NCBI RefSeq assembly: GCF_005239135.1
Contig: NZ_QKNX01000003.1
Span: 1 to 64,000 of the forward strand
DNA from: Natronomonas salsuginis
Lineage (GTDB): Archaea; Halobacteriota; Halobacteria; Halobacteriales; Haloarculaceae
Direction: 5' to 3'
DNA: 64,000 nucleotides
This document shows positions 26,502-47,741 of the stretch, in pieces; the first letter of the stretch is position 1; the number at the start of each line of letters is the position of its first letter. A program made the translations under genes and the position numbers. Below the pieces are notes generated by a model that did not search any database, was not told the DNA's origin, and saw only the letters and a list, made by a program, of their open reading frames with translations.

Positions 26502-26757
26502 CTACGTGTTCACACGGCGGTGGGTCAAATGGGTGTTTTGTAGCGGTCTCTATTGGGGGGTTGCGAGCGCTCGATGGCGCTGTACAGACGCCAAGAGTCT
26601 GTCGCGGGCCGCCAACGCGGTTCCCGTGTCCTCCGGTCGGTCCCGACCCGGGGTGTCGATGCCCAGGGTAAAGATTTTAACGCTACACCCGGTTGAAACA
26701 GGTGTCAATAATCAGTGGCTACTCGGGCCTCCGAGGGGCCACGGAGTTCATACATAC

Positions 26758-30778: not shown

Positions 30779-31862
30779 GGGCCACTCGATCGGCGTGGTG
30801 ATCCCCGCGTACAACGAGGAGGGGTTCGTCGGCGACGTGATCGACACCCTCCCCGAGTACGTCGACCGGGCGTACGTCATCGACGACTGCTCGACGGACG
30901 GCACGTGGGACGAGATCAGAGCGCACGCCGAACGGGCGAACCAGCGCGCCCGCCAGCACGGCCCCCTCGCGGTCGATGCGGATCTCAAACCCGTCCCCGT
31001 CGACGACGACGCACCGGCGCAGTTCATCGAAGCGGACGGCGGCGTCGCCGAGAGCGGCCTGCTCTACGATCCGCGGATCGTCCCGATCCAACACGAGGAG
31101 AACCGGGGCGTCGGCGGCGGGATCAAGACGGGCTACACGCGCGCCCTGCGGGACGACCTCGACATCACCGCGGTGATGGGCGGGGACGGCCAGATGGATC
31201 CCGACATCCTGCACACGTTCCTCGATCCGATCGTCGACGACGAGGCCGACTACGCGAAGGGCAATCGCTTGCTGTACAAAGAGTACCGTCGGGGCATGTC
31301 GAAGTGGCGCTTCTTCGGCAACTCGATTCTGACCTTCCTGACGAAGGTCGCCTCGGGCTACTGGAAGACGATGGACCCCCAAAACGGCTACACCGCGATC
31401 TCGAAGTACGCGTTGGAGAACGTCGGCATCGAGTCGATGTACGAGTACTACGGCTACTGCAACGACCTGCTCGTGAAGCTGAACGCCAAGGGGATGCGCG
31501 TCGCGGACGTGGCGATGCCCGCGGTGTACGGCGACGAGGCGTCGAGTATTCGATATAGTACGTACATTCGGAAAGTGTCGGGAATGTTGTTGCGGAACTT
31601 CTTCTGGCGGCTGAAAGTGAAGTATTTAGTGTTGGATTTTCATCCATTGGCGCTGTTCTATCTGTTTGGGATTCTGACGACGCTGTTTGGTATGTCTGCC
31701 GTCGGATGGTCAGTGTATGGGAAAATCATAGGCAATAATCCGCTGTTCGTCCGTGCTGCGCTCAGTTTGATGATATTCACCATCGGGAGCTTGTTCCTCA
31801 TGTTCGCGATGCTGTTCGACATGCAGGTGAACGAGGACAGAGAGGTCCAGATACGTGACTGA
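30771..31862 (+). CDS. membrane-anchored family 2 glycosyltransferase
   Basis: A 363-residue GT-A enzyme. IGVVIPAYNEEGF opens the fold, MGGDGQMDPD holds the metal/nucleotide DxD-like site, and KGNRL and DPQNGYTAIS follow as in dolichyl-phosphate sugar synthases. Two C-terminal membrane helices (about 290-312 and 328-350) anchor it. It probably makes a dolichyl-phosphate sugar or extends a lipid-linked glycan. Codon use changes abruptly near base 31,550: the catalytic part is GC-rich and the membrane part AT-rich. An upstream in-frame GTG at 30762 is possible. Confidence 0.88.
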   Translation: MYRGHSIGVVIPAYNEEGFVGDVIDTLPEYVDRAYVIDDCSTDGTWDEIRAHAERANQRARQHGPLAVDADLKPVPVDDDAPAQFIEADGGVAESGLLYDPRIVPIQHEENRGVGGGIKTGYTRALRDDLDITAVMGGDGQMDPDILHTFLDPIVDDEADYAKGNRLLYKEYRRGMSKWRFFGNSILTFLTKVASGYWKTMDPQNGYTAISKYALENVGIESMYEYYGYCNDLLVKLNAKGMRVADVAMPAVYGDEASSIRYSTYIRKVSGMLLRNFFWRLKVKYLVLDFHPLALFYLFGILTTLFGMSAVGWSVYGKIIGNNPLFVRAALSLMIFTIGSLFLMFAMLFDMQVNEDREVQIRD

Positions 31863-32760
31863 TGGCAGGCTCGCAGTGTCGGTCGACGTCGAGGATTGGT
31901 ATCACGTTCCCGCCGTCACTGGGTCGTCTTTCTCCGAGTTCGAGAACGTCCACGAGTTCTTCGCATACTGGGACGAGGAGTACGATTACCTCACGGAGCC
32001 AACCCACCGGACGTTGGAGATACTCGACGAACTCGGTGTCAGAGCGACGTTCTTCGTCGTCGCGGACGTCGTCGACAACTACCCCGGCCTCGTGGAAACG
32101 ATCGCCGACCACGGACACGAGATCGGATGCCACGGTCTCCATCACGAGTGTGTTATCAATCCCGACACGAAGGAGCCCCGCTTCACGCCAGAGGAGTACC
32201 GGGAGATCCTTCGGACGGCGAAAGCGAAACTCGAAGATGCGTCCGGCCAAGAGGTAGTCGGATTCCGAGCGCCGGGTGCGTACATCGGCGGGTGGGTCAT
32301 CGACGTGCTCGACGACGTAGGTTTCGAGTACGATTCTTCCGTCGCCAGGAACTCGCTTTACAACAAGACCGACCAAGATCTCGACGCGGTCGGGACCACA
32401 CCGTATACTCCGAAAGAGAACGCGCTCGATCCCGGCGGTGATCGCGATATTATTGAACTCCCCTGGCCGTATTGGGACACACCCTTCGGGAAGATCCCCG
32501 CCGGCGGCGGGCCGCTGATTCGCCTATTCGGCCGCAGAATTGTCCAGCGGGGCATTGAGCAGAGTCTCGCACGCGGTGATTCAGTCTTCTATTTCCATCC
32601 AATCGACATCGCCCGGGCGGACTTTCCAAACGTGGGCAATATGACACGTCGCCCTGCCTATTGGCTGTTCAAAGGCGAGCGAACTGAAAAAAGGGTACGG
32701 ACGCTCTTATCTAGCATGGGAGATAACGTACTAACTGACTGCCAGACAATATGCAAATAA
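31855..32760 (+). CDS. polysaccharide deacetylase (NodB family)
   Basis: A 301-residue CE4 deacetylase. AVSVDVEDWYH (8-17) supplies the catalytic Asp pair, the HEIGCHGLHHE stretch gives the metal His-x3-His, and VGFRAPGAYIGGW and FYFHPIDIARAD are later conserved motifs. It would remove N-acetyl groups from a sugar or glycan. The GTG at 31855 overlaps the GT2 gene by 8 bases, and the 3' end overlaps the PHP gene by 10 bases, so three functions are tightly coupled. Confidence 0.88.
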   Translation: MTDGRLAVSVDVEDWYHVPAVTGSSFSEFENVHEFFAYWDEEYDYLTEPTHRTLEILDELGVRATFFVVADVVDNYPGLVETIADHGHEIGCHGLHHECVINPDTKEPRFTPEEYREILRTAKAKLEDASGQEVVGFRAPGAYIGGWVIDVLDDVGFEYDSSVARNSLYNKTDQDLDAVGTTPYTPKENALDPGGDRDIIELPWPYWDTPFGKIPAGGGPLIRLFGRRIVQRGIEQSLARGDSVFYFHPIDIARADFPNVGNMTRRPAYWLFKGERTEKRVRTLLSSMGDNVLTDCQTICK

Positions 32761-33449
32761 CCGAGCTCGATTCGATTACGTGTGACCTCCATATGCACTC
32801 GAAGTATTCCTTTGATAGTTTTATGAGCCCAAATCGGATTATTTATACAGCAAAAATTCGTGATCTGTCCGTTATTTCAGTAACTGACCACGGAAATATG
32901 GATATTTACGCGAATGAGTTTTCTCGAGAAAATCGAGAACGGATACTCGAAAAGCACGGCGTCTTTGTTATCCCAGGTATGGAAATAGAAACTAATCGCG
33001 GCGATATCATTGGGTTATTTCTCGATAAGGAAGTTTCTGGAAACGGCTTTGAAAGTGTCGTCGAACAGATCAGAGAAATGGATGGGATTGTCGTACTACC
33101 CCATCCGTATCATCGGGATTGCGATCCTGCTGATCTCCTCTCACACATCGACCTGATCGAGGTGGTTAATGGAAGATGTAAATCGGTACAGAACGAGCGA
33201 GCAGGCGAACTCGGAGACGAAAATGACGTTCCAATTATTGGCGGTAGTGACGCACATATGTACTGGGAGGTAGGACAGATCCGAACGGTCCTTTCGAACG
33301 AGGCCAGCGACTCGAATTACGACAAAACTGCACTGCTTCTCGATGCAGAACGAGAGGTGAGCGGCTCACCTCTCCCATATCTCTTAACCCACGGAATAAG
33401 CTTCGTTAGCGGAAGACTAAAGAATCTAGTGGAAGGGACGAGATCATGA
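32751..33449 (+). CDS. PHP-domain metal-dependent phosphoesterase
   Basis: A 232-residue PHP protein. CDLHMHSKYSFDSFM, VISVTDHGNMDIY, VFVIPGMEIETNRGDI, VVLPHPYHRD and IGGSDAHMYWEVG contain the His/Asp ligands of the three-metal site in the usual order. Such enzymes hydrolyse small phosphate esters. In this operon it may release phosphate from a sugar or nucleotide intermediate. AT-richer than genes before 31 kb. It overlaps the ATP-grasp gene by 4 bases. Confidence 0.85.
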   Translation: MQITELDSITCDLHMHSKYSFDSFMSPNRIIYTAKIRDLSVISVTDHGNMDIYANEFSRENRERILEKHGVFVIPGMEIETNRGDIIGLFLDKEVSGNGFESVVEQIREMDGIVVLPHPYHRDCDPADLLSHIDLIEVVNGRCKSVQNERAGELGDENDVPIIGGSDAHMYWEVGQIRTVLSNEASDSNYDKTALLLDAEREVSGSPLPYLLTHGISFVSGRLKNLVEGTRS

Positions 33450-34657
33450 CGATTCTGGTCCTCGACGGAAGCCAGCGAGCGTCCTTGGCGATGGTTCGAT
33501 CTTTGGGGCATCACGGCTTGTCGGTCCATGTAGGTGAGACACACACTCCGTCGCTCTGTTCGTTCTCGAAATATGCCAACAAAAGCGTCACCTATGCAGA
33601 TCCTCAAGAGAGTCGAGAGTTGTTCATTCAAGATCTCAAACGAATCCTGCAACAATCTGACTACGAGATGGTGTTCGCTTCGAGAGAGGTGACTACTATA
33701 CCGCTTTCGTATTTTAAATCTGAACTAAAAAAAGAAACAATCATCCCGTTTCCCGACCGGGAGACAATGGAATTGACAGTAGACAAATCCAGAACGTTCA
33801 CGATTGCAGACAATATCGGTATTCCCACCCCAACAACGTACACTCTCTGTGAGCCGGACGAGCTCACAGAGATCGATGATCAGCTGGAATATCCACTGGT
33901 CGTCAAACCACAATCGAAGACGACCTGGGTCGGCGACCAGCCTAGGATGTTGAAAGTCACTGAAGAAAATTACGTTGACGACTTCGATGAGTTACAATCT
34001 GTCTCTGAGAAAATTTACGACGCCGTCAACATGATGCCGTTGATTCAGGAGTACATCCCTGGGGAGGGATATGGTGTCGAACTACTGTGCGATCGCGGGA
34101 GTTCACGGGCACTGTTTATGCATCACCGGCTGCGTGAATATCCTATCACAGGTGGAGCCAGTACGTACCGGGAAAGCATTTACAAATCTAAATTGGAAGA
34201 GCCGGCCGTTGACCTACTTGAAGCAATGGACTGGCACGGCGTCGCGATGGTTGAGTTTAGGCTTGACGAGCGGGACGGGTTACCAAAATTAATGGAAGTA
34301 AATGGGCGGTTCTGGGGGTCGCTCCCGCTCGCCATCGCGGCTGGAATCGATTTCCCATACCTCCTCTATCGGCTATATCGTGGCGAATCTATTCCGGATG
34401 TCGACTACGATACCGACGTCACAAGCAGATGGCTCTTCCCGGGAGATATTCTTTGGTTCGCGTCGTCACTCAAAAACAGGTCGAATCGACTTGGAACTCT
34501 CCGCACATTCACTTCTGTCCGCAATCAGCATTATGATATTCTCTCGCCCTCGGATCCGCTTCCGGTCGTCGGTGCGCTACAAAATATGCTCCATCAGGGA
34601 TTCAACGTTTTGAAGGGAAAGCGGAACCTCTCGGGCGAGGTGACTAAAAAAAGCTAG
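33446..34657 (+). CDS. ATP-grasp ligase
   Basis: A 403-residue ATP-grasp enzyme. The N-terminal pre-ATP-grasp fold (MTILVLDGSQRASLAMVRSLG) is followed by DKSRTFTIADNIGIPTPTTY, YPLVVKPQSKTTW (nucleotide Lys) and KLMEVNGRFWGSLPLAI, which carries the metal-binding Glu-x-Asn. Enzymes of this group join a carboxylate to an amine or other acceptor through acyl phosphate. Next to a deacetylase, a likely acceptor is the freed amine of a sugar. This is inference from context. Confidence 0.82.
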   Translation: MTILVLDGSQRASLAMVRSLGHHGLSVHVGETHTPSLCSFSKYANKSVTYADPQESRELFIQDLKRILQQSDYEMVFASREVTTIPLSYFKSELKKETIIPFPDRETMELTVDKSRTFTIADNIGIPTPTTYTLCEPDELTEIDDQLEYPLVVKPQSKTTWVGDQPRMLKVTEENYVDDFDELQSVSEKIYDAVNMMPLIQEYIPGEGYGVELLCDRGSSRALFMHHRLREYPITGGASTYRESIYKSKLEEPAVDLLEAMDWHGVAMVEFRLDERDGLPKLMEVNGRFWGSLPLAIAAGIDFPYLLYRLYRGESIPDVDYDTDVTSRWLFPGDILWFASSLKNRSNRLGTLRTFTSVRNQHYDILSPSDPLPVVGALQNMLHQGFNVLKGKRNLSGEVTKKS

Positions 34658-34658
34658 T

Positions 34659-35867
34659 CTAAAGATAGCCGAGGTCGGATAGTTGTTTGATTGACTCATC
34701 GGAAAGGTCGATATCGTCTCGCACGATTTCCTCACCGGCGCTGTGGGTCTCGAAAATGTCTCTCGCTTCTGACGCCGAAAAGGCAGGAGAACCGTACTTT
34801 TGCTCCGTATCGACAATTGCCTGATAGCTCGCCTGGAACTGCCTATTATATCTCGTATATTTCCCGTTCGGGAGGGCGAAGGTACGAAAGAGGTAGACGA
34901 GGAGTCTTATCTGATAGCCAGACTGTACAAAGCTTCGACCGCCACTCCGGTCGTACACAGCTTCTACCTCGTAATGCATTGTCGGCATCGTATTAGCGAC
35001 GGTCGGGTTCACCCGACGTAAGTAATCGTTCACACTTCGGTTGTAATAGCAGATACCAATATCGGCGAGATCTTTATTGAGAAGATTTTTTCCAGGAAGG
35101 TCGGGCCACGGATCGTATCCCAAAATATCCAGTAGCGTCGGCATTAGATCGACGTGTCGGAATAAACCGCTTGTGTCGAGATCCGGGTCAATATCTGGAT
35201 GAATGAACGTTGTCGGAACGTACACCAACTCTGGGCCTGCCGGGTAGTCGTGTCCGATTTGACCGTATTCACCAAGATATTCTCCGTGATCGGACATGGC
35301 GATGACGAGCGTGTCGTCTTCGATTCCACGCTCCCGGAGAATTTCTAAACGGCGGTCAAGTCTATTAAACCAGTCGTCTATCGCGTCATCATAATCCGTT
35401 TGCAAGGTGTCGATATCGTGGCCAGTACGCTTGAAATAACGGCTTCCTTCCTTTGGGTCTTCCAGCTCTGGCGGATACGGCGCGTGGCCACCTATATCAC
35501 GGTCAACCGCAACAAACGGTTCATCGATCTCCGCTAACGGTTTCTGTTGTTGGTAACCGAATAATTGTTGTTCGATACGTAGCCATTCGTGAAAGTCAGT
35601 TCCGCTTTCATCGAATACTACATTATGATTTTCGAGGTCAAAAAGATGTGGCGTATCTCCGAGCTGCTGAAAAAATCCGTGAATTCCATGTGTCGTTGGT
35701 TGCTTGCCGGAAAAAATTGACGCAAATGATGTTGGAGTATGGGTTGATGCTGCAATTGTCTTCAATGTCTTCCCACGTTCGGCTAATTTTTCCTTGGTTT
35801 TGTCATATCGAACCGCATCTCCAACGAATATATATACGTTTTTAATATCTAAATCGCTTAGTGTCAC
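34659..35867 (-). CDS. sulfatase-like alkaline phosphatase superfamily enzyme
   Basis: A 402-residue protein. NVYIFVGDAVRYDKT carries the first metal Asp, AASTHTPTSFASIFSGKQP the nucleophile region (Thr/Ser rather than the Cys of true sulfatases), and LVIAMSDHGEYLGEYGQIGHDYP the DHG...GH metal site. It ends in KQLSDLGYL, a tail seen also in the enzyme at 42,121-43,611. Without the Cys-x-Pro-x-Arg motif, phosphoesterase or phosphoglycerol/phosphoethanolamine transfer is more likely than sulfatase activity. It starts at GTG and is convergent with the ATP-grasp gene. Confidence 0.82.
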   Translation of the reverse strand: MTLSDLDIKNVYIFVGDAVRYDKTKEKLAERGKTLKTIAASTHTPTSFASIFSGKQPTTHGIHGFFQQLGDTPHLFDLENHNVVFDESGTDFHEWLRIEQQLFGYQQQKPLAEIDEPFVAVDRDIGGHAPYPPELEDPKEGSRYFKRTGHDIDTLQTDYDDAIDDWFNRLDRRLEILRERGIEDDTLVIAMSDHGEYLGEYGQIGHDYPAGPELVYVPTTFIHPDIDPDLDTSGLFRHVDLMPTLLDILGYDPWPDLPGKNLLNKDLADIGICYYNRSVNDYLRRVNPTVANTMPTMHYEVEAVYDRSGGRSFVQSGYQIRLLVYLFRTFALPNGKYTRYNRQFQASYQAIVDTEQKYGSPAFSASEARDIFETHSAGEEIVRDDIDLSDESIKQLSDLGYL

Positions 35868-35979
35868 TACCAGAAGTAGTGAGTCCAGCCAATATAAATA
35901 TGAAGATTCAACAGCAGGTATTTAGAAAAAGTTGTATGCACCAGACAGCAGCACAATGTACCGACACCCAGAGCGATAG

Positions 35980-37023
35980 ATGAACTCAGATATTGTAATT
36001 GGAATTGGACATCCAGCCCACGTTCACTTCTACAAGAACGCTATCAAGGAACTCAGCGAGTCTGGATACAAAGTTCATGTCGTTAGCAAACGACGGCCAT
36101 TAGCAATAGATTTGTTACAGAACTATGGCATTGAACACAAAGTTGCAGGTCGGTTAAGAATTCAGCATGATAGTCTTCTGAAGACGGCTTTATCTTTTGC
36201 TTCGTTTGAACTGGACATGATCAACGAAGCCAGAAAGCATAATCCTTCAGTCGTTACTGGTGTCGGGAATATTCCGTTATCACATGCTTCCGCTATCTTT
36301 GATTGCGAATCCCTGATCTTTACGGATACAGAACATGCTGAATTAGCGAATAGAATCACGTTTCCGTTTGCCGATCGTATTTATACACCAGATTGTTATA
36401 TCGGAGACATTGGCATAAAACAAGTTCGTTACCCAAGTTATCACGAGTTGGCATATCTGCACCCTAAACGATTCGAACCAGATCCAACAGTTTTAGACGA
36501 TGTTAACGTTAATCCTGATGATTCGTTTGTCATTCTGCGACTTGTTGCATGGAATGCGATTCATGACATGGGTGACAGTGGTTTCGAAAATCTTCACGAT
36601 ATCGTTACTGCTCTAGAAGAGACTGGAGTAGAGGTGTTTATCACCTCCGAAGCGCCGCTTCCTGAATCAGTTTCCGATCGGCGTCTCACAATTGAACCCC
36701 ATCGTATTCATGACCTGATGTACTACGCAGATCTCTTTATTGGGGAGAGCGCTACGATGGCTACTGAAAGTGCTGTCCTCGGTACGCCTGCGATTTTCGT
36801 ATCATCCAGTCGGCGTGGGTACACTAACGAACTGGAGGACGAATATGGACTGGTTTTCAATTATTCTGGGCCGAATCGACAAATAAATGGACTCAATCAA
36901 GCGATATCGATTCTCGACGAGTACGACGAGACTGTGTGGCGGAAGCGGAGGGAACAGCTGCTCAAGGAAAAAATCGATACGACTGATTTTATCATTGATC
37001 AGATTACCTCGAGGCAGTCATAA
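35980..37023 (+). CDS. DUF354-family glycosyltransferase-like protein
   Basis: A 347-residue GT-B-like protein. IGIGHPAHVHFYKNAIKELSE is the typical N-terminal nucleotide-fold opening of DUF354, followed by GVGNIPLSHASAIF and a C-terminal domain with LFIGESATMATESAVLGTPAIFVSSSRRGY, equivalent to the donor-binding segment of UDP-sugar epimerases/GT28 enzymes. It probably works on a nucleotide sugar in surface-glycan assembly. It stands alone on the plus strand, in AT-rich DNA. Confidence 0.82.
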   Translation: MNSDIVIGIGHPAHVHFYKNAIKELSESGYKVHVVSKRRPLAIDLLQNYGIEHKVAGRLRIQHDSLLKTALSFASFELDMINEARKHNPSVVTGVGNIPLSHASAIFDCESLIFTDTEHAELANRITFPFADRIYTPDCYIGDIGIKQVRYPSYHELAYLHPKRFEPDPTVLDDVNVNPDDSFVILRLVAWNAIHDMGDSGFENLHDIVTALEETGVEVFITSEAPLPESVSDRRLTIEPHRIHDLMYYADLFIGESATMATESAVLGTPAIFVSSSRRGYTNELEDEYGLVFNYSGPNRQINGLNQAISILDEYDETVWRKRREQLLKEKIDTTDFIIDQITSRQS

Positions 37024-37228
37024 ATAACCTGGGTCTTCGAGGTGCTCAAAAAACTACTCTTCGTTGCCTCGATTGGTCGTAGGTCGTAAGTTTGTATTAA
37101 AACCGGCTCATTACCTTTTATCCACCAGGTTTCCAAACATATTGGAACACTATTGATGAAATAAACTATCATTCCTGTCAAAAATATACGATTGCCTAAT
37201 AACATGATTACACATTTTCTGAGGAGAA

Positions 37229-38410
37229 TTATTTATCTTCCAATGAGATTTCAATATCCCAATCCGAGAGCCTCGCTGCTTCGTACAATCGAGCTGTGAG
37301 TGTTTCTGGATCGGGATTGTTTCGTGCGAACGTCTCTTTTTCGTTATCCCAGCACTTTTTGAACTGTCGGGATAACCACTGCTCTTGATCGAGTTTTGTT
37401 CCCCGATCGAACTCGTCAAGCGCATACGCAAGCTCTATGCCAGACACGTTGTACGGATACCCATAAATAGTATCTTCTAATTCATCGACAAAAGTATCCG
37501 ATTCTATGGCCGTGAAGATCCGGTCAATCCAGGATGTTGACCATAGTTTATGGTCCGGATATACCTTCTTTAGTAAGGCAAACCCGTATAGGTGGAAAGA
37601 TTGATAACCGATTTTTTTTTCTCGAGCGACCTTAGAAGTTGCGGGGAGTCGAGAGAATGGAGTCAATTTAATAAATAATTCTCTGAATAGATCTGAATCC
37701 CTCATCGGTATTCGAACAGCCAGTAATACTAGTGTCATGCGGGCTCGTTGATCTGCAATCGCGATGTAAGGCCACATTTTTTTTGGTGGCTGAGCCCCGA
37801 GTTCTATTAAACCTCTATTATCAATATTGATCTGTGATTCAATCTTATCGAGAAAATGACTTATCCGTTTGTTAATTTCCGGATCTACATCATTGGATGT
37901 TGATAACAATGCCCCGGCAGATGCAAACCAGAGTTGATGATTAAATGTTGAATCGAAACAGAGGACTTTTCCATTAATTTCGACCCGTTTCCAGAGTCCG
38001 AGACGATCATCAAATGGATGTTGAAGGAATACCTCTTCAGCGGTTTTAATAAGTTCTGGACAATCTACGATATTACTGTATTTAGCAATCGCTTCGATAG
38101 TCCAAGCTTGTCCTATGAGCCCGTTGCAATGGTCCTTAACATTCGAGTCACGATGATGAAAAGTATACCCATAGGGCCTAGCTTCTTTAGATGATAAATA
38201 GGCAGCTGCAGAATTTGCGCTATTTAAATATGCCTCATCTTCAGTCTGTAAATAAAGTTCGCAAAGAAGTACTAAATAGTGGGATGTATTACGCACTGGA
38301 GTTTCTGAGTCCTGATGAGGGCCATTACATCCTGGGGGAAAGGAACCATCTGAACGCTGCTGGCTGACAGCATTATCTGCGACAACACGTATATAATCAC
38401 ATAGCTTCAT
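37229..38410 (-). CDS. AglQ-like protein of the N-glycosylation cluster
   Basis: A 393-residue protein with repeated helices, suggesting an (alpha/alpha)6 barrel like those of unsaturated glucuronyl hydrolases. Examples are DGSFPPGCNGPHQD, NTSHYLVLLCELYLQ, DHCNGLIGQAWTIEAIAKYS and FNHQLWFASAGALL. It resembles AglQ of Haloferax glycosylation clusters, thought to help process a hexuronic acid on the glycan. The assignment rests on remembered similarity and context. The strand is opposite to DUF354, with a 205-base gap between their 3' ends. Confidence 0.65.
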   Translation of the reverse strand: MKLCDYIRVVADNAVSQQRSDGSFPPGCNGPHQDSETPVRNTSHYLVLLCELYLQTEDEAYLNSANSAAAYLSSKEARPYGYTFHHRDSNVKDHCNGLIGQAWTIEAIAKYSNIVDCPELIKTAEEVFLQHPFDDRLGLWKRVEINGKVLCFDSTFNHQLWFASAGALLSTSNDVDPEINKRISHFLDKIESQINIDNRGLIELGAQPPKKMWPYIAIADQRARMTLVLLAVRIPMRDSDLFRELFIKLTPFSRLPATSKVAREKKIGYQSFHLYGFALLKKVYPDHKLWSTSWIDRIFTAIESDTFVDELEDTIYGYPYNVSGIELAYALDEFDRGTKLDQEQWLSRQFKKCWDNEKETFARNNPDPETLTARLYEAARLSDWDIEISLEDK

Positions 38411-38504
38411 TGTTAACTATTGAATACCTATCAAAATATAATATTCATCTCTTCTGATGCCTGGCAGAACATTCTATAATCATTTCACTAAAAGTCAATT
38501 ATGA

Positions 38505-39695
38505 CTAACGTAGATTAGGTAATGACTGCTGATATATGTTTTCAAATTCATCAATATTCTCTCTCCAGGAGAAAGTCTCGGCAAATGATTGGATCTTTCT
38601 TTTATCCCATGATCTTGACAGGGCATCATCAATTGTTTCCGAAAGTATTTGAGGGTTTTTGGGTGGTACTCTATAACCAACTTCATTAGATGGTATTACC
38701 TCTTCAGGAACATTTGTTGTACCAATTACAGGAATACCGTTTATCATCGCCTCAATAAAAACTAACCCAAACGATTCACCCTCACTTGGCAAAACCATTA
38801 AATCAGAATGACTGTAATATTTTGATATATTTTCAACATAACCATGCAGGTGTATTTGATCAAGTCCCCTTTGATCTATTTGATTTTCTACTTGTTTTCT
38901 CTCCCCACCATCGCCAAAAATATGGACACCCATCTGCGGATATTGTTTTATTAATTGTTCAACTGCATCAATCAATACATACACTCCTTTTCTTTTAATT
39001 AAATCCCCTACAAACATAATATTATAATCATAATCACGATATGCATCGGGAGCCACACCATCTGACGATATATAACCGACATCCACTGGGTTAAGTATAA
39101 CTCTAGAATTTTCTGGAAGGCAATCGAAATAAATCTCCGCATCATTTCGGAGTTTCTCGCTGATGAATATCAGATGATCTGCTTCATATATATTATTCCT
39201 AATAAGGTCATACATCATTTGACTAACTTCATCATCCGTAGCCTCAATACTGGTAAAACTATGTACGGATGTTATAAGTGGTGTCTGTTCTGCTATGCAT
39301 CTAGCTATCGGGAAGCGTTGTTGTATATGGTGGACATGAACTATATGTGGATTCCATCCTATCGTGGACTGCTTTGCGTTTAAAAAATACAGTATATATT
39401 TCAACTTGTCAGTAATAGAAAATTGATCAAACTTACGCGTAAGGTATTTTATATTAGTCAAATTTTCATCTAAAAATAAAGATCTGAATAAAGATTCCGG
39501 GTTCATTCCAAAAATAGAAACACCATCAATTATTTTCGGCTTAGACGTTTTAGTAATAATATTTTCAGCAAAGACAGCAACATCATGCCCTTGCTCTACC
39601 AATTTCTTTGATAGCTGCCAAACGTGCGTATGAACCCCACCGCTTGTTTTACCCCCGACAGACGGTGGTAAAGGGCCTATTTGTAGTACTTTCAT
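38505..39695 (-). CDS. family 4 glycosyltransferase
   Basis: A 396-residue GT-B glycosyltransferase. KVLQIGPLPPSVGGKTSGGVHTHVWQLS is the N-terminal Rossmann start, YNIMFVGDLIKRKGVYVLIDAV the linker to the donor domain, and MVLPSEGESFGLVFIEAMINGIPVIGTTNVPEEV carries the E-x7-E motif. It would transfer a sugar from a nucleotide donor onto the lipid-linked glycan. The DNA is the most AT-rich coding sequence of the window, suggesting recent transfer. The ATG at 39695 begins the canonical strand. Confidence 0.9.
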   Translation of the reverse strand: MKVLQIGPLPPSVGGKTSGGVHTHVWQLSKKLVEQGHDVAVFAENIITKTSKPKIIDGVSIFGMNPESLFRSLFLDENLTNIKYLTRKFDQFSITDKLKYILYFLNAKQSTIGWNPHIVHVHHIQQRFPIARCIAEQTPLITSVHSFTSIEATDDEVSQMMYDLIRNNIYEADHLIFISEKLRNDAEIYFDCLPENSRVILNPVDVGYISSDGVAPDAYRDYDYNIMFVGDLIKRKGVYVLIDAVEQLIKQYPQMGVHIFGDGGERKQVENQIDQRGLDQIHLHGYVENISKYYSHSDLMVLPSEGESFGLVFIEAMINGIPVIGTTNVPEEVIPSNEVGYRVPPKNPQILSETIDDALSRSWDKRKIQSFAETFSWRENIDEFENIYQQSLPNLR

Positions 39696-39701
39696 TACCA
39701 A

Positions 39702-40132
39702 ATTATCTCCTGTCCTGTTGGTAAGGATTTCGCATTACAACATATTGCCCCACTATAATAGATCATATTTATAAATGATTATATGAAGTGATTTATCAAT
39801 AGAGCATAGAGCGCCAAAATAGATCAACCAATCAGAATCATTCTCCTTGAGCATCAAGGAAATCCAGAAGAGATATAATCGAATAAAAAGCAATAGCAAG
39901 AAGTAGTTATCAATAATTGAACCCAAGCAAGTAATCAAATCGGAACAGTTACTAAACGTCATAATAAATCCAAAGGAATCCAGAACTAGCTCAATATAGT
40001 CGAAAAAGTTCAGGACCAGATGGAGGTAGTACTCAGATCTTGCCAATAATCAGATGGTCAAAAATACTTAAACAGATAGTGGTTGAGGAGTATAGAGGTA
40101 TCTATTGTCCATGTGTATGAACCAGTATAATC
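39702..40132. other. 431-base AT-rich region between divergent genes
   Basis: No well-supported gene. A 97-codon minus-strand frame (39753-40046) encodes a Phe/Leu/Ile-rich sequence with a possible membrane helix, but AT-rich non-coding DNA readily gives such frames, and it has no family resemblance I can see. A TATA-like ACTTAAA near 40,066 could serve the membrane-protein gene at 40,133 with a leader of about 35-40 bases. Confidence 0.45.
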
Positions 40133-42067
40133 ATGAATAATTTAGAGCCGAACAAATGGATAGAACAGCTTATCCGCCCTCAAATTCTTGGCCCGTTGCT
40201 AATCATCATCGGGTTCATCGGATTATACTTCTCAACCATCGTTCGAAATCCGTATACAATACTCTATCCGTTAGTTCTCATCGGTGCAGTAAGCGCTTTC
40301 TACCTGCTCCGTCCTCATACAGAGATCAAGATGGTCATACTGGAAACTACCTATTTGAAAGCGATTTTAGTAGTCATCTTTGTACTTTGTTCCCTACTCA
40401 TACTCCAGTACCGTGCTTCGGGATTTCATCGAACTAATATCGTGTTCTATTTTACGTTCGCAGCCTACGTCTTCTCAGCACTTTTCATCCTTAGTAGCTC
40501 TCATGAGACGATCGGACTCTTGACGATTCTGCTTATAGGGATTACAAACAGGCTGACTTCATATTATAACAGCGCCCTGTATAGCGGTGTCGATATATAT
40601 TCCCATAGTCACTTTGTACAAACTACCGCGCAGGAAGGATCACTAATAGTTTTCTCAACGAATAAGTATTTTTATTCCCCTTTTTACCACATCTTGGTAG
40701 CCGTTGGTGAACTCACCTATAGCGTTCCAACTCGAGATGCAATCGCACTTACTGTACTTCTCGCCGTTACCGTTTTACCTGTAATTATCGTCTATTCAAT
40801 CACGTCTGCGTTCTGGAATCGACAGGTCGGATTGATCGCCGGATGGCTGTACGTCACGGCTGATTTTGCGATCAATTGGGGAATTCAAGTAATTCCAACT
40901 TCGCTCGGCGTTGTATTCTTCGCACTCCTTTTGTTCTCGTTAGTGAAGTACACCAATCTAAAAGAGAAACGTCAGTACGGGCTCGTTATTTCCTTTATTG
41001 TTTCACTGATGTTTACTCACCAAGTCAGCCTGTTTATTGGAATCACTGCGATAGGGGTCCTAACCCTCGTTATACTTATCTACCGAATGGAACTCTCCGA
41101 GACCGCGTTAAATCTCGGGCTAGTAGCTGGCTTTTCAATGTTCGTGGACTTTATTGTCACGAAATATAGCGGACCAAGTGGAGAAGCAAGCTTCTTTGAT
41201 GTAGTTCTCGGTAATTTACTGGCTGCGCTACTATCTATGGGTGCTTTAACCCGTTCAGAAATTAAGTTGCCACAGGATCCGACGATTAGTCCAAGTGGGG
41301 CGGCGGCTCTCACTCTTTTACAGGTAACCGGATCAGCACTCCTTCTCCTGCTCGCCGTTTTCGGCGCACTGTATTGGTTGTCTATGCAACGAACAAACCG
41401 TGAATTCTTTACAGGCGTTCTTTTGAGTGGAATTGTTACAGCGCTACTCGCGGTGACACTCGCCGGTCCTGCTATCGGACTCCGCAACCTCTTACCGAAT
41501 AGATGGTGGGCATTTTTGTATCTCCCGTTAACTATACTAGCCGGCCCCGGATTATTGGTTTTGGTTCAAGAGATGCGATATAAATGGACTGGAAGATCAG
41601 AAATGGTGATTGGGTTTGTAGTTCTACTCCTGTTTATATCCCCATATACTGTCTTGATGGTAGGAAACCATGCGGGTGCGCCCGATCAGCCATTCCTTGA
41701 TGATGCTCCGGGAGCTGAGAGTCTGAGCATATCTGATCAGGACCAAGAACTGATTGAGCACTCTGAACGTTATCAAGGCGATCTTGATATTATAACTGAT
41801 CGCCGACTATCTGCGATATTTTCTCGATATTACGATGTATCTTCACGTACCCTATACATTGATTATAATGAACCAGCGTCTCTATATCAGCCATCAATAA
41901 TTGTCAATCGTAAATACATTCATACTAAGCATGCACAATATGAAGTTGAGTATAATGATCAGCGGATGGTAGTTCATGGGGCATTCCCGCTTAAGCATTT
42001 GCCGGTTGATAATAAAAGCCAACTTTACAATAGTGGGGATAACTCATTAACGTATTATCGGGTATGA
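40133..42067 (+). CDS. large polytopic membrane protein, GT-C-like
   Basis: A 644-residue protein with roughly 13 membrane helices in residues 15-520 and an extracytoplasmic C-terminal domain of about 110 residues. An acidic loop (YSGVDIYSHSHFVQTTAQEG) after the early helices resembles the catalytic Asp loop of GT-C lipid-sugar-dependent glycosyltransferases, and THQVSLFIG sits in a later loop. No family can be named with confidence. Its position between GT4 and flippase genes suggests a glycosyltransferase or polymerase of the surface glycan. Confidence 0.7.
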   Translation: MNNLEPNKWIEQLIRPQILGPLLIIIGFIGLYFSTIVRNPYTILYPLVLIGAVSAFYLLRPHTEIKMVILETTYLKAILVVIFVLCSLLILQYRASGFHRTNIVFYFTFAAYVFSALFILSSSHETIGLLTILLIGITNRLTSYYNSALYSGVDIYSHSHFVQTTAQEGSLIVFSTNKYFYSPFYHILVAVGELTYSVPTRDAIALTVLLAVTVLPVIIVYSITSAFWNRQVGLIAGWLYVTADFAINWGIQVIPTSLGVVFFALLLFSLVKYTNLKEKRQYGLVISFIVSLMFTHQVSLFIGITAIGVLTLVILIYRMELSETALNLGLVAGFSMFVDFIVTKYSGPSGEASFFDVVLGNLLAALLSMGALTRSEIKLPQDPTISPSGAAALTLLQVTGSALLLLLAVFGALYWLSMQRTNREFFTGVLLSGIVTALLAVTLAGPAIGLRNLLPNRWWAFLYLPLTILAGPGLLVLVQEMRYKWTGRSEMVIGFVVLLLFISPYTVLMVGNHAGAPDQPFLDDAPGAESLSISDQDQELIEHSERYQGDLDIITDRRLSAIFSRYYDVSSRTLYIDYNEPASLYQPSIIVNRKYIHTKHAQYEVEYNDQRMVVHGAFPLKHLPVDNKSQLYNSGDNSLTYYRV

Positions 42068-42120
42068 CTAACTCATCGATGTATAATATTACTTCTTAAA
42101 CATTATGAGTTGATCAATAT

Positions 42121-43611
42121 TCAGAGATACCCCAGATCTTCAAGCCGCCGTTGAACGCCATCATACGACGACACTTCATCAGAAACGAACTGTGGTGTAT
42201 ATTCATCTACGGAAATGAACTCCGGTTCTTCAGTAGGATATTCAGGTAGTATCTCACCATCTGTATCGATCGGTATTGGGATTTCGTATTTAATTAAAAG
42301 AGTGGGTGCAATATCAAGTAGTGATGCCGCAATTGGACCGTCATCACTAGAGGGTACACCGACAGCAACAAACATCCCATTAGAACTATGATGGTCTTTC
42401 AGAGATTCACGCCAGATCTGTCCGACGGGTCCTCGCCAAATTTTACACGTCTCCGAAGCGAGTATTATTTCACCGGCTTCATCCGTGAACTTTCCCTCAT
42501 AGACATCCTCACGTCGGTACGCGCGAACTCCAGATACGTCTTGAAGATCACAAACTAGGTTGTCAATGAGCCGTTTTTTTTCAGTCTCTGCTACCGCTGG
42601 GGAGAGACGGATTGCAGCCTCATCTTTTGATCGGCAGTAAGCTGACGATTGTTCGGTATCGATACCAGCCTCGAAGGAGACATCAATGTCCAAAGAACTA
42701 GTTGCGAAATTTCGGATTGGTCGGAGGACGGGATGAAGCCACTCTTGCTGGAAGAGGAAGCGTCCAAGCCCACCGATATTAATTGAACCTCCGATTTCGT
42801 TCTTGGAACCGATGTGAGTCTCACCAAACTCTAGATACCCATTCGCTTCAAGCCAATCGTTGATGTAGAACTGTCGATCGAATACTTGGAACCCATGGTC
42901 ACTCATCAAAAGTAGCGTGTCGTCATCATCCAGTGTTGAGTCGAGTGTTCGAACGTATTCATCAACTACACGCAGGAGTTCTCGGGCTTTCTCGGCGGTC
43001 TTCTTTTCGGGATGTCTCACGAGATCCAGATACGCCTGATGCTGAAGCCAGTCCGTCTCACTCACCAACTGAAAAAGGAAGTCATGATCATCTGCACGGA
43101 GCACTTTGAGGAATTGGTCCCGGTTGTGTTCGAACGAGTCTTTTAATTTTCGAATACATTCGAGAGGATTTCCCTTCAGCGTAGGGTACTCTGGCGGTTT
43201 GATCCCATATGTATCGTACAGATCTCTCGGAACTGGCGGGCGGTCGTCCGCGTCGAGCCAGGAGGGCACAATATCACCCTCAATTCGGGCCGGTAGAGAA
43301 AATGGTAGATTAAACAGACAGCAATCGAACCCATGTTCATCTAAGGATTCATAGAACGGTTTGGTACGGAGCGCAGTTCCATCCAAAAATTCAGGATCAA
43401 AGTCCTCGTTGAACGTGATAAAGTCGTACACACCGTGTTTGCCTTGATTTTTTCCCGTCTGAAAAGACGCCCAGGCAGGAGCTGTGACGGGTGGTTGGGT
43501 ACTCTCCAGTTCACCGCTCAAATTTTCGTTATATAATGACTCGATGTAGGGAGTGAATTCAAGGAGATCTGTGTGAAAAGCATCAAGCCCAATAACGACC
43601 GTCTTGCCCAT
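42121..43611 (-). CDS. type I phosphodiesterase/nucleotide pyrophosphatase family protein
   Basis: A 496-residue alkaline-phosphatase-superfamily enzyme. VVIGLDAFHTDLLEF gives the first metal Asp, PPVTAPAWASFQTGKNQGKHGVYDF the nucleophile (Thr) region, and LLLMSDHGFQVFDRQF the Asp-His metal pair. It ends RRLEDLGYL, matching the tail of the enzyme at 34,659-35,867. Haloarchaeal and bacterial relatives are common in polysaccharide clusters and may cleave or transfer phospho-linked groups. It is AT-rich and convergent with the membrane-protein gene. Confidence 0.85.
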   Translation of the reverse strand: MGKTVVIGLDAFHTDLLEFTPYIESLYNENLSGELESTQPPVTAPAWASFQTGKNQGKHGVYDFITFNEDFDPEFLDGTALRTKPFYESLDEHGFDCCLFNLPFSLPARIEGDIVPSWLDADDRPPVPRDLYDTYGIKPPEYPTLKGNPLECIRKLKDSFEHNRDQFLKVLRADDHDFLFQLVSETDWLQHQAYLDLVRHPEKKTAEKARELLRVVDEYVRTLDSTLDDDDTLLLMSDHGFQVFDRQFYINDWLEANGYLEFGETHIGSKNEIGGSINIGGLGRFLFQQEWLHPVLRPIRNFATSSLDIDVSFEAGIDTEQSSAYCRSKDEAAIRLSPAVAETEKKRLIDNLVCDLQDVSGVRAYRREDVYEGKFTDEAGEIILASETCKIWRGPVGQIWRESLKDHHSSNGMFVAVGVPSSDDGPIAASLLDIAPTLLIKYEIPIPIDTDGEILPEYPTEEPEFISVDEYTPQFVSDEVSSYDGVQRRLEDLGYL

Positions 43612-43704
43612 ATGTGGGCCTACTTATGAATACACAAGTAGTTTTACACTCTTCTTGGAATCAGTATCTCGAATAATCGCCTGTCAATATTGAGTGTGCA
43701 GATC

Positions 43705-45168
43705 TTACTTGATCAGGGAAACAATTCTTCTAACGTCGAGTAGTCCGAATATTACTGATAATATTGCCCAAACTAATGCACCAACTGAGACGACCAAGCC
43801 CAGAGTTAGGATGCCCTCTACATAATCCATGAGAACCCAAACAATACCGGACATCACCCCAGTAATCGCGAAGATACTCACGAGCCGACGGAACAACCAA
43901 TTGACCCTCAATTCGAGTTCGGATAACATAAGATAGACCGTGGCGAAAGTGTAAGCTGAATACGTTACGACAGTTGCGATAGCTGCACCTTCGACGCCGA
44001 ACCGGGGAATCAGGATAATGTTCAGAACAACGTTTGCCACAGCACTTACTGTTCGGATAATCGCTCGCGCACGGGCACGTCCGAGGTAATCGAGAGCACC
44101 ACTCGAGAGAGAAGATATCACCAACAGCAGCGCATAAGCCGCCATGATGCGCAGAACCGGCACTGCGCCGAGATACTCACCCCCGAATATCAGTTGAATT
44201 AATCGTTCCGCGATTAGTGCTATTCCTGCTGCGATCGGTGTATACATGAGAAGTCCATGCGAGAGTGCTTCCTCATACATCCTCGCAGCAGTCCCCGTAT
44301 TCCCTTTCGCCTGTTGCGATTTGTATGTCGGTTCAAGAGTGTAACCAAGTGCGTCAACAGGCATCCTAACGAAGTTTACTATCTGCTTGCTGACGACATA
44401 ATACGCGACACCAACTGGCCCGACAAAGAACCCGACCAAAATTGAGTCAACCCGTCGATCAATCGCGTTACCTGTGTTGGTCGCTGTTAGCGGAAGAGCA
44501 TACTCGAGAATCTGTTTTGGTATGATACTCTCCATCTGACTACGCTCGATGTCGCGATAAAACTTGAAATAAATATAGAGCAATCCAACACTACTCGAAA
44601 CCATGAACGCGAGAGCGTACCCGAAAAGAGCACCAAGAGCCCCGTACCCAAGTATTACAAATATAATAACTACACCGAATCGAAGTATGCGGTCGATAGA
44701 GTGAAGAATAGCACCCGCTTGGATCTTCTCGAACCCATGAAGAATGGTTCGAGCGTAGCGGTTCAACGTTTCGAATACGACGATGAGTACCCCTGCCAGC
44801 AACAGAGGGGCGAGATCAGGTTCATTGAGAAGACTAGCGAAGTACCGATGGCCGATGACAAACACTATGCAAACCAGTAAAATCGAAACGATAGTATACA
44901 AAAAAGAATATTTTAATATATGTGGGATTTGTCCAGCGTTGATTTCCTTGTATTCGGCGATGTATCGGGCAGCAGATTTGGATATCCCCAGCCGACTGAA
45001 AATTTGAGCGATCGCTAAAATGGAAATAGTTAGCGAAAAAAGCCCATAGCTATCGGAACCCAATAGTCGTGCCAGCACAACAGTCAAGACTGCGCCAGAA
45101 ACAACCGCAATGAAACGCCCGACAAACTCAATTTTGAAACGAGTTCCCAACTTAGACGACAAACTCAT
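43705..45168 (-). CDS. oligosaccharide flippase (Wzx/AglR-like, MOP superfamily)
   Basis: A 487-residue protein with about 14 membrane helices. It begins KIEFVGRFIAVVSGAVLTVVLARLLGSDSYGLFSLTISI, the usual start of polysaccharide-type flippases, and has GRARARAIIRTVSAVANVVLNIILIPRFGVEGAAIATV in the second half. It should move the lipid-linked oligosaccharide across the membrane for use by the STT3 protein encoded upstream on the same strand. The ATG at 45168 is preferred to a TTG at 45210. Confidence 0.9.
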   Translation of the reverse strand: MSLSSKLGTRFKIEFVGRFIAVVSGAVLTVVLARLLGSDSYGLFSLTISILAIAQIFSRLGISKSAARYIAEYKEINAGQIPHILKYSFLYTIVSILLVCIVFVIGHRYFASLLNEPDLAPLLLAGVLIVVFETLNRYARTILHGFEKIQAGAILHSIDRILRFGVVIIFVILGYGALGALFGYALAFMVSSSVGLLYIYFKFYRDIERSQMESIIPKQILEYALPLTATNTGNAIDRRVDSILVGFFVGPVGVAYYVVSKQIVNFVRMPVDALGYTLEPTYKSQQAKGNTGTAARMYEEALSHGLLMYTPIAAGIALIAERLIQLIFGGEYLGAVPVLRIMAAYALLLVISSLSSGALDYLGRARARAIIRTVSAVANVVLNIILIPRFGVEGAAIATVVTYSAYTFATVYLMLSELELRVNWLFRRLVSIFAITGVMSGIVWVLMDYVEGILTLGLVVSVGALVWAILSVIFGLLDVRRIVSLIK

Positions 45169-45311
45169 TCGTTTCTCACCGAGGGCATTGGCTGGTTTAG
45201 TGTTGTCCAAATTGACTTGAGCGATTAACTGGCGAGGCAGAAGTATCAGAAAGGCGTTGTAGATCCATTAAATTCGTACAAATCAGCCACCATAGCAGAT
45301 CTTGCTGGATG

Positions 45312-47741
45312 TCATTCCCCCACGCTAATTGAGTTCCCATGCATAACGTCCCGCTCTGAAACCTCAACACGCTCTCCATTAATCTCGTAAGTTCCTGGAT
45401 ACGGAACTGTCATGTTTGCGACGCCATCGTCAGTGACTGCGACTTCTCGCGAATAAGTAAATGTTCGATCTTGAACGGAGACCTCGGCTTCGGCAACAGT
45501 AATATCTCGTTCAACGCCGTTAAGTTCAATATGAGCACCTGGAACGACAGAGAAGAGCGCGATATTGGCATCAGCATTGAGATAGATCAATCGGTATCGT
45601 TCGAGGGATTCGAAACGATCATCGGGTACTCCAAGTTGGTCTGTCAATCGGGGCTGAGCGCGCTTTTCGGGAATACTCACTGGTGGGTCTGCCAAAACGA
45701 GATACCCAATCCGGTCATCGAGCCATTCTAACCTCTCATCGATACTCTCATCAACAAACAATGGTGTATATACATATCGTCCAAGACTTTCATCTGCTGA
45801 TTCTCCACTTACGTAGTAATTGTACATCCGATACTCCGCCCAGGGTGCAAGCACGTGGTTCTCGGGATATTCCCGATCCAGCGACTCGGCGTGCTCGGAG
45901 ATCTCCATCGCCGTTTCGACGTGCGCTCGATCATGAGTGATCTGTCCCATCATCGTCGGGAGGTACAACAGACTGGCGCTGGACACCAACAATACCACCC
46001 CAAAAATCAAGCCGGCTCGACGGAGCTCCAGCGATCTAACTGCCGACCCAACTTTTTCCCCCATCTGTCGTCCCCCCATTCGCTCGAACAGCACGGGCTC
46101 TCGGGCCAAATCAACGACCGACAGCAGATATACGACTCCGAGACTACTTAGCACCGAAATAACAATCACTAACCGACCCGCAAACCGCGCCAGTATCCCG
46201 GCGACGATCACGTAGTGTACCGTGAGTACCGAAATCAACAACCAGGCAGGGTCGTACTCTCGATACACGTAATAGAGACACCACGCGAGCATCGCCAATC
46301 CGATGTAGAATTCGATGCCGATGTGCGCGACCGGGCCGTACAGGTAGAATAGATCCGCCGAGTACAGCGACTGGCTTTGCGTGCTCACCTGCCAGCTCGG
46401 GGCCGAACTCGGTCCGATACTTCGGAGAACTCTGTCTACGACCGCCTGTATCTCTCCGACGGCGAGCAGCGCCCCCACGACACCGACCACCGCAATCACC
46501 GGCTGCACGACGAGCAACGACCGAGCCGACCACCCCTGCTTCGCCCACAGCTCCCCCAACCCGACGACTCCGACGACGCCAAGAAACGTCACCACGGCCA
46601 GCGCCGGTGCGGGAATCCCATGCCATCCCAGACCGAGATGCAGCGCCATCGCCAACGCTGCCCCGACACCGAATCCAAATACAAGCGGCAAATTAACACG
46701 CCCCGGCGACACGCCGTCTCGAACGTCCATAGAGACCCGAAGCCCGACGAACGCTCCCAGCCCGACGAACAGCTCCAGCGACCCGCCCCACGAGTGCGTC
46801 CACGCGGCGAAGACCAGCCCGAAGGCGAACGCGACGAGCCACGTCTTCCGAGCGTTCAGATGTCCAGAGATCGCTTCATCCGTCCCGACCATCTCTCGAC
46901 GCCGCGTGAAATCGACCCCGAGCCACGCGAGTGTCACCAGAATCAGTCCGAACCACAGATACTGATTGTATCGGTGGTGCAGCAATCCCAGGCCGGTGTA
47001 GTTGGCGTGTACCGGCGCGAGCGCCAGCACCAACACCGACGCGACGCCGACGCGATAATCCCGCGTCAACAGCAACGCCAGATAGTACAGCGCGATTGCC
47101 AGAATGATTGTAAACACCAACGGCAAAAACGCCGCCACCATGTCCGCCGCCCACTGATCGCCGCCCAGCAGTTCGGTGAACCACCAGTTCGTCGCATGCG
47201 TGAGCGGCCGTTGATTGAAACTGCCGTCGTCCCAGGGTGGGTTCACCAGCACGCCGAAATCGAACGGTCCCGACGACTGTGCGATCAGCTGTTCCTGCCA
47301 GTAGCGGAAAAAGTACGGATCGTTCCCCGGCGACACCACGCGGCCTTCGACGAACACCGACTTGTAGTGAAACGTTCGCGCCGCCACCAACACGACGAGC
47401 GCGCCCACGAGCCCCGCGACGGTGGGCCACTCGACGTCGAAATCGACGGTGAACCCGGCGTCGCCCTCGTTCGCGTCCACGAACGCCTCACCCTCCAGTG
47501 CCGCCCGGACGGCCTCCCGATCTACAATGTGATACGCGCCGTCGACCTTCTCGACGATATCCGATGACACGACCTCCCCGAACGTTCCCGAATCAAGCTC
47601 GACATCGTCGAACTCCCACGTCTCCGCCCCGTCGCCGACCGCCAACAGCGCCTCGACGACGCGCTCGCCATCGTCGCGCTCGTCGAGAAACGCTGCCGTG
47701 TCTTCGTACACCCCCGTGCGGTCGTCGGTCACTTTCCCCAT
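45312..47741 (-). CDS. STT3-family oligosaccharyltransferase-like protein (AglB-related)
   Basis: An 809-residue GT-C membrane protein. Residues 1-105 are soluble and resemble a winged helix (LDSGTFGEVVSSDIVEKVDGAYHIVDREAVRAAL). About 12-13 membrane helices follow. Conserved STT3 features are the first-loop GNDPYFFRYWQEQL with the catalytic-type Asp, and NQRPLTHATNWWFTELLGG. The canonical WWDxG acceptor motif is absent; its place is taken by PWAEYRMYNYYVSGES (633-648). It probably transfers the cluster's glycan to proteins, but may be a paralogue with altered acceptor recognition. The 5' half is GC-rich and the 3' half clearly AT-richer. Confidence 0.8.
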   Translation of the reverse strand: MGKVTDDRTGVYEDTAAFLDERDDGERVVEALLAVGDGAETWEFDDVELDSGTFGEVVSSDIVEKVDGAYHIVDREAVRAALEGEAFVDANEGDAGFTVDFDVEWPTVAGLVGALVVLVAARTFHYKSVFVEGRVVSPGNDPYFFRYWQEQLIAQSSGPFDFGVLVNPPWDDGSFNQRPLTHATNWWFTELLGGDQWAADMVAAFLPLVFTIILAIALYYLALLLTRDYRVGVASVLVLALAPVHANYTGLGLLHHRYNQYLWFGLILVTLAWLGVDFTRRREMVGTDEAISGHLNARKTWLVAFAFGLVFAAWTHSWGGSLELFVGLGAFVGLRVSMDVRDGVSPGRVNLPLVFGFGVGAALAMALHLGLGWHGIPAPALAVVTFLGVVGVVGLGELWAKQGWSARSLLVVQPVIAVVGVVGALLAVGEIQAVVDRVLRSIGPSSAPSWQVSTQSQSLYSADLFYLYGPVAHIGIEFYIGLAMLAWCLYYVYREYDPAWLLISVLTVHYVIVAGILARFAGRLVIVISVLSSLGVVYLLSVVDLAREPVLFERMGGRQMGEKVGSAVRSLELRRAGLIFGVVLLVSSASLLYLPTMMGQITHDRAHVETAMEISEHAESLDREYPENHVLAPWAEYRMYNYYVSGESADESLGRYVYTPLFVDESIDERLEWLDDRIGYLVLADPPVSIPEKRAQPRLTDQLGVPDDRFESLERYRLIYLNADANIALFSVVPGAHIELNGVERDITVAEAEVSVQDRTFTYSREVAVTDDGVANMTVPYPGTYEINGERVEVSERDVMHGNSISVGE

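Follow-up and report, generated by a model that had tools for sequence, protein, structure and literature searches.

How does a block of AT-rich glycan genes come to lie in the GC-rich chromosome of a haloarchaeon with both of its edges inside genes? The question is raised by a locus in the first 64,000 nucleotides of contig 3 of the 2.9-Mb Natronomonas salsuginis genome (hereafter, the window). The block is bounded on the left by the gene for a glycosyltransferase, GT2 (30762..31862, + strand), and on the right by the gene for a divergent second oligosaccharyltransferase of the AglB/STT3 type, AglB2 (45312..47741, − strand). The initial annotation of the window read these intragenic edges as the mark of homologous recombination that swaps a variable interior, in the manner of bacterial capsule loci. 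We consider it probable, though well short of certain, that the locus is a surface-glycan island in which homologous recombination through the conserved flanking genes exchanges the AT-rich interior.

Composition steps inside GT2 and AglB2

The GC profile of the window bears out an AT-rich interior. GC content is about 0.65-0.67 up to 31.5 kb, is 0.35-0.50 at 33-45.5 kb with a minimum of 0.35 at 38.5-40 kb, and is back to 0.61-0.64 from 46 kb on, so that the low stretch spans 31.5-45.8 kb. In the interior, 12 of 14 one-kb windows have a GC content below 0.50. None of 360 such windows does in a genome null made of eighteen 20-kb stretches from other parts of the genome (mean 0.654, standard deviation 0.034). 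GC content at third codon positions (GC3) follows the same course gene by gene: it is 0.87-0.88 just before GT2, 0.85 in GT2, 0.70 in the following NodB-type deacetylase gene, which is thus intermediate as first described, 0.28-0.57 in the interior, 0.69 in AglB2 and 0.66-0.84 beyond it.

Likelihood-based change-point analysis of GC3, in which the support interval comprises all positions within 3 log units and the log-likelihood difference (dLL) is compared with permutations, places a sharp step inside each edge gene. In GT2, GC3 falls from 0.93 to 0.67 at codon 261 (support interval 252-262), with a dLL of 19.9 against a permutation maximum of 6.1. This left compositional breakpoint (31518..31548, no strand assigned) has its change-point at position 31,545, within a few bases of the 31,550 given by the initial annotation. 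In AglB2, GC3 falls from 0.77 to 0.39 at codon 643 (629-646), with a dLL of 42 against a permutation maximum of 10. This right breakpoint (45803..45854, likewise without strand) has its change-point at position 45,812 and lies over a W-x-x-x-R-M-x-N motif. The right edge is therefore inside the STT3-type gene, as had been proposed, but some 450 bp to the left of the 46,300 originally assigned to it, and only the final 20% of the gene, rather than its 3' half, is AT-rich. Among the 222 genes of the genome null, for which only 3'-ward GC3 drops were counted, dLL has a 99th percentile of 9.6, passes 19 in a single gene and does not pass 41 in any. This shows that the steps in GT2 and AglB2 are real and unusual for this genome. 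Since a 3'-ward drop cannot arise from a wrong start, mis-called gene starts are ruled out as their cause. Integration at a tRNA site was also discarded, there being no tRNA in the window.

The steps might reflect the domain composition of the two proteins, membrane versus soluble part, rather than their history. In AglB2, the step does come close to where the membrane domain ends, and in GT2 it immediately precedes the membrane helices. However, the choice of amino acids has little influence on GC3, and no GC3 step is seen in most of the homologues that we profiled (117 of AglB2 and 38 of GT2), which have the same domains. We have therefore rejected domain composition, which we regard as very improbable.

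Elsewhere in the same genome, a non-glycan gene whose product has a restriction-enzyme-like N-terminal part (L302:15335-16450) shows an internal GC3 drop from 0.80 to 0.41 and is probably a second mosaic.

GT2 and AglB2 loci across haloarchaea

Both edge families are distributed across the order, if patchily: at an E-value of 1e-60, GT2 relatives are found in 283 of 392 genomes and AglB2 relatives in 203 of 392. When GT2 loci from 27 genomes were compared by pairwise blastn collinearity (378 pairs), the point at which collinearity ends had a median of −4 bp relative to the GT2 stop codon (quartiles −26 and 0) and was below +200 bp in 89% of pairs. For example, two sister genomes that are 90% identical (L154 and L155) are collinear over 6.8 kb to 2 bp before the GT2 stop, where they continue with different genes. 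The gene sets downstream of GT2 differ widely, with NodB, DUF354, a GT-C protein and a flippase recurring among them. The inner side of GT2 is AT-richer in 19 of 19 loci, the mean GC content falling from 0.59 to 0.48 (p 4e-6).

As for AglB2, collinearity ends between −700 and +150 bp from the stop codon in 90-91% of the 102 pairs at 70-80% identity. Of the six pairs at 80-85% identity, five remain collinear for more than 500 bp on the upstream side, but only one does on the downstream side. Above 85%, in pairs that are mainly from Haloarcula species, collinearity often runs through, as would be anticipated of lineages that split recently. Natrinema altunense and N. gari show 91-95% identity as far as 334 bp beyond AglB2, diverge there, and resume their match about 10 kb further along. 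The inner side of AglB2 is AT-richer in 66 of 87 loci (p 5e-8). Significant GC3 steps in the 117 AglB2 homologues comprise 16 3'-ward drops and six rises, and a 3'-ward drop is found in 9 of 27 homologues with an AT-rich 3' neighbor versus 5 of 84 otherwise (Fisher p 0.0008, or 0.002 when this window is left out). Most drops fall at codons 530-690; because short tracts easily escape detection, however, a hot spot is not proven by this clustering alone. The AglB2 break of this genome (codons 629-646, W-A-E-Y-R-M-Y-N) coincides with the most conserved stretch of the protein, in the top 0.4% of windows, where homologous pairing of divergent copies would be easiest.

Together, these comparisons support the view that, in many haloarchaea, the GT2 and AglB2 families serve as conserved borders to glycan gene sets that are variable and AT-rich. 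The defining feature of a replacement island, a retained surface function with different gene content between conserved flanks, is found across species and genera for each anchor separately, though not for this exact GT2-AglB2 pair.

The AT-richness of glycan interiors in many haloarchaea, irrespective of host, suggests a general trait rather than one inherited from a single donor. It could be taken to mean that low GC is a local mutational or selective effect on glycan genes, through weak expression or relaxed codon use, the steps merely marking where the effect begins and no DNA being exchanged. Yet such an effect would not produce a step from 0.77 to 0.39 within one reading frame when most homologues are flat, nor would it account for breaks in collinearity and in gene content that coincide in these genes. 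We judge this explanation improbable.

Probable recombination, possible acquisition and the age of the left half

In the mechanism that we favor, the left anchor would be a GC-rich module for UDP-diacetamido-uronic acid together with GT2, which would load the sugar onto dolichol phosphate (Dol-P), and the right anchor would be AglB2. Both GC-rich anchors would supply the homology for recombination, the AT-rich interior being replaced as a block from a glycan gene pool common to haloarchaea. The usual endpoint of a recombination tract would be the 3' end of an anchor gene or its vicinity; here, the tracts would reach into GT2 by 0.3 kb and into AglB2 by 0.5 kb, producing hybrid genes.

A crossover inside GT2 and AglB2 of this very genome is likely but unproven. 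In trees built from the two halves of GT2, the window sequence groups with one genome (G247) with support of 98/87 over the first 261 codons and not over the rest. The phylogenetic discordance anticipated between the halves of each edge gene is nevertheless not significant in GT2, where approximately unbiased (AU) tests do not reject agreement of the halves (p 0.26-0.37), and several other observations weigh against exchange of the interior. AglB2 is a lone branch in both of its half-trees and has no relative above 48% identity, which leaves that comparison without power. All our comparisons are between species and genera, with one genome per species and no same-species pair. A conserved motif at the GT2 breakpoint was rejected: the break does not lie in an especially conserved stretch (rank 0.43). 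GT2 and AglB2 flank one cassette in no other sampled genome, each normally bounding a different locus. Finally, the only congener with a GT2 locus (G012) shares with the window the order UDP-sugar dehydrogenase, GT2, NodB, PHP, ATP-grasp, sulfatase and DUF354, at 56-73% amino-acid identity. This gene order indicates that the left half is an old arrangement that has not been replaced since the split from G012, so that any exchange on the left side predates that split or excludes it. The congener has a GC3 drop of its own, at the GT2/NodB border. What endures of the recombination initially proposed is thus the placement of the edges inside genes and the role of these families as conserved edges of AT-rich cassettes; replacement of the left half since the G012 split does not.

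The distribution of close relatives bears on a different course of events, in which a single transfer from another haloarchaeon brought in the complete cassette with its ends, the steps being old donor junctions with no crossover in GT2 or AglB2 in this lineage. The pair of anchors occurs in no same-genus genome. Only 4 of the 19 congeners searched have a full-length GT2 match with more than 52% identity, and GT2 relatives at 72-78% identity are spread over several other families, which points to transfer between genera. AglB2 is absent from most of the genus; a match is present in one same-genus genome (G007), the best identity within the genus is 38%, and the nearest kin, none above about 48%, are in another family. 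In nine relatives, the site next to TRM1, the conserved left neighbor, keeps the left flank, but neither the cassette nor the right flank has a match after TRM1. In G012, the shared left half stands at another genomic place, with TRM1 125 kb away. The lack of the anchor pair in the genus, the spread of relatives over other families, the TRM1 sites and the place of the left half in G012 fit acquisition in one piece. Against it, a donor with this arrangement was not found in about 1,200 genome searches, and the scenario relocates recombination instead of removing it, because the hybrid gene must still have formed somewhere. We regard it as unlikely, albeit far from negligible. A closer donor for the 3' tail of AglB2 was likewise not found when 146 genomes were searched across the family with the 166-amino-acid tail (best identity 36%).

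Separately, a contig binned as Bacteroidetes bacterium SW_11_45_7 (L257) encodes a fragment 50% identical to AglB2, which is most likely haloarchaeal DNA in the wrong bin.

Exchange of the interior through the anchors can be extended, as a possibility that we consider less likely than not, to a more specific scheme. An order-wide pool of AT-rich cassettes would plug into two "sockets," the 3' ends of the Dol-P-uronate GT2 and of the AglB2-type oligosaccharyltransferase. Exchange between genera would give hybrid transferases cut at their most conserved motif, and this genome would have joined a GT2-socket cassette, with its own STT3-like GT-C protein, to an AglB2 socket. The flippase of the window (43705..45210, − strand) has its relatives above 39% identity mostly in GT2-type loci, one of which (L143) has a homologue of the phosphodiesterase as well; the window may thus join a GT2-type cassette to an AglB2-type locus.

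Anchor enzymes, interior genes and known surface islands

The genes preceding GT2 comprise all four families of the pathway to UDP-GlcNAc(3NAc)A (WbpA/B/E/D type) in one run at 26.4-30.8 kb, although equivalog cut-offs are not reached. All are on the + strand. They encode a WbpD-like hexapeptide sugar N-acetyltransferase (26392..27339; Pfam Hexapep 1.1e-28, NeuD-type 6e-27), for which the listed start is probably too far upstream, a WbpE-like DegT/DnrJ aminotransferase (27326..28423; Pfam 2.8e-120), a Gfo/Idh/MocA oxidoreductase (28425..29402; Pfam 2.5e-28) and a UDP-N-acetylhexosamine 6-dehydrogenase that closes the module (29399..30778; NDP-sugDHase 5.6e-107, above cut-off; UDP-ManNAc dehydrogenase model, 305 bits). 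The best match of the oxidoreductase is an archaeal UDP-GlcNAc 3-dehydrogenase, and its NF040723 score is 247 bits, under the cut-off of 450. We take this four-gene set to match the Wbp and methanococcal pathways that make UDP-diacetamido-uronic acid; by analogy, this would be the product of the module, the exact sugar being a matter of the same analogy. GT2 itself (Glycos_transf_2 3e-19) is of the polyprenyl-phosphate sugar synthase type, with two C-terminal membrane helices, and is not the AglJ equivalog (TIGR04182, 60 bits versus a curated cut-off of 325).

AglB2 is likewise distinct from the canonical haloarchaeal AglB, since it scores 99.5 bits against TIGR04154, for which the curated cut-off is 450, while being above the cut-off for AglB_L1. 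The canonical AglB of this genome, with 842 bits, is encoded on contig 1 (G000:C1:759070). Both edge genes had been described as conserved glycosylation genes. With the canonical AglB elsewhere and AglB2 a divergent second copy, they are not core genes: both are accessory, and the STT3-type one is a divergent paralogue. The AglB2 family profile matches the solved Archaeoglobus fulgidus AglB (3waj) with 2.9e-14 over residues 110-538 and 710-773, which indicates that AglB2 is homologous to AglB/STT3 oligosaccharyltransferases. The acidic residue of the first external loop, D141, is invariant in 118 aligned rows, and W634 and R638 are conserved, with a W-A-E-Y-R motif instead of WWDYG. However, the acidic residue of the second loop (D/E, DHH-type motif), which is Asp or Glu in all other aligned homologues, is His at position 255 of AglB2. 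Judging from the alignment, the enzyme may bind metal differently or be inactive. AglB2-type proteins also have a conserved N-terminal extension of about 80 residues before the membrane domain (residues 10-90; TFDDVELDSGTFGELVSRGIVEK...), which looks like a small separate domain. Directly outside the right edge, at 47787-48682, there is a small gene pair, probably an antitoxin and a PIN-domain toxin of the VapBC type.

Between the anchors, the genes on the + strand encode, from the left, a polysaccharide deacetylase of the NodB/XrtA type (31855..32760; Polysacc_deac_1 1e-18; TIGR03006, 131 bits), a PHP-domain hydrolase (32751..33449; PHP 7e-10, PHP_C), an ATP-grasp ligase (33446..34657; ATPgrasp_Ter 1.7e-12), a GT-B-like DUF354 protein (35980..37023; DUF354 2.8e-16), which in other genomes is frequently the first shared gene to follow GT2, and a membrane protein of 644 amino acids (40133..42067). 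Those on the − strand encode a sulfatase-superfamily enzyme (34659..35867; Sulfatase 4.6e-13), a helical protein of 393 amino acids (37229..38410), a GT4 glycosyltransferase (38505..39701; Glycos_transf_1 1.9e-32) with the lowest GC3 of the cassette, 0.28, a type I phosphodiesterase/nucleotide pyrophosphatase family enzyme (42121..43611; Phosphodiest 3.2e-28) and the flippase, of the Wzx/AglR type (Polysacc_synt 9.6e-28). Two interior proteins, of 393 and 644 amino acids, have no Pfam match at 1e-3. The former has a single homologue, in Natronorubrum texcoconense (L220; 40% identity), there too near an AglB2 gene, and the confidence of its fold prediction was too low for use.

The 644-amino-acid protein was predicted with fair confidence (pLDDT 73) to adopt a GT-C/STT3-like fold. 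Its best structural matches are STT3 subunits, yeast STT3 with a VIA Z of 22.9 over 456 residues (root-mean-square deviation 5.9) and Archaeoglobus AglB with a Z of 20.0, followed by other GT-C enzymes. The family is present in 52 of 146 genomes, is widespread in haloarchaea, and a member lies within 20 kb of a GT2 relative in 18 of the 30 genomes listing both. GT-C enzymes use dolichol-linked sugars, so the natural reading is that GT2 makes a Dol-P-sugar and the GT-C protein spends it.

Put in order, GT2 would make Dol-P-uronate; GT4, DUF354 and the STT3-like GT-C protein would extend the glycan with nucleotide- and dolichol-linked sugars; its modification would fall to the deacetylase, the sulfatase-like enzyme and the ATP-grasp enzyme; the flippase would export it; and AglB2 would attach it to protein. 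The product is thus probably a uronic-acid-rich surface glycan attached by AglB2. It is possibly a polysaccharide, because of His255 and because in Haloarcula hispanica (HAH_1202-1214) AepG, which lies beside an aglB homologue, makes Dol-P-glucuronate that serves exopolysaccharide and not S-layer N-glycans (PMC9943897), a precedent that cautions against assuming N-linkage here. AepG is a GT2 with two C-terminal membrane helices, and it is in this architecture and in its neighborhood that it resembles the GT2 of the window.

Variable surface islands of this kind are known, and the island described here adds a well-documented example to them; it is not a new system. In replacement flexible genomic islands, one archaeal case of which is the S-layer island of Haloquadratum, surface-glycan sets are replaced as a block, an exchange attributed to homologous recombination in the bordering genes (Lopez-Perez et al. 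2014, PMC4033161). There, the borders were marked by peaks of synonymous change between strains; here, they are marked by a composition step and a collinearity boundary between species, and the anchor enzymes are identified. The cell-wall island GI1 of Haloquadratum walsbyi is also a mosaic haloarchaeal surface island, and its authors compare its recombination to capsular switching (PMC4535781). GI1 is centered on S-layer protein genes, was described from strain-level data rather than by comparison of species, and is presented in a text that names no aglB or oligosaccharyltransferase. The aglB-aglJ N-glycosylation cluster of Haloferax has variable content between two terminal genes, one for an oligosaccharyltransferase and one for a GT2 of the dolichol-phosphate type, and recombination within aglB was found there (PMC5867893). 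Its aglB is the principal, conserved copy, in contrast to the divergent extra copy found here, and its GT2 is AglJ. In a different genus, strains of Halorubrum lacusprofundi differ in variable region 4, about 37 kb of divergent N-glycosylation genes including aglB, for which the parts of the account available to us report no anchor analysis (PMC6011602).

What is new is the anatomy of the anchors and the GT-C partner enzyme: an order-wide boundary at the GT2 stop codon, an AglB2-type anchor and such a partner were not found in the literature searched. An unannotated GT-C family is thereby linked to the Dol-P-sugar synthase from which it probably draws its substrate. In haloarchaea, both virus sensitivity and mating are influenced by surface glycans. 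Should two identifiable enzyme genes act as fixed sockets for an order-wide AT-rich pool, the short region from anchor to anchor would suffice to read surface type, and one could test directly how "serotypes" spread from one archaeal species to another.

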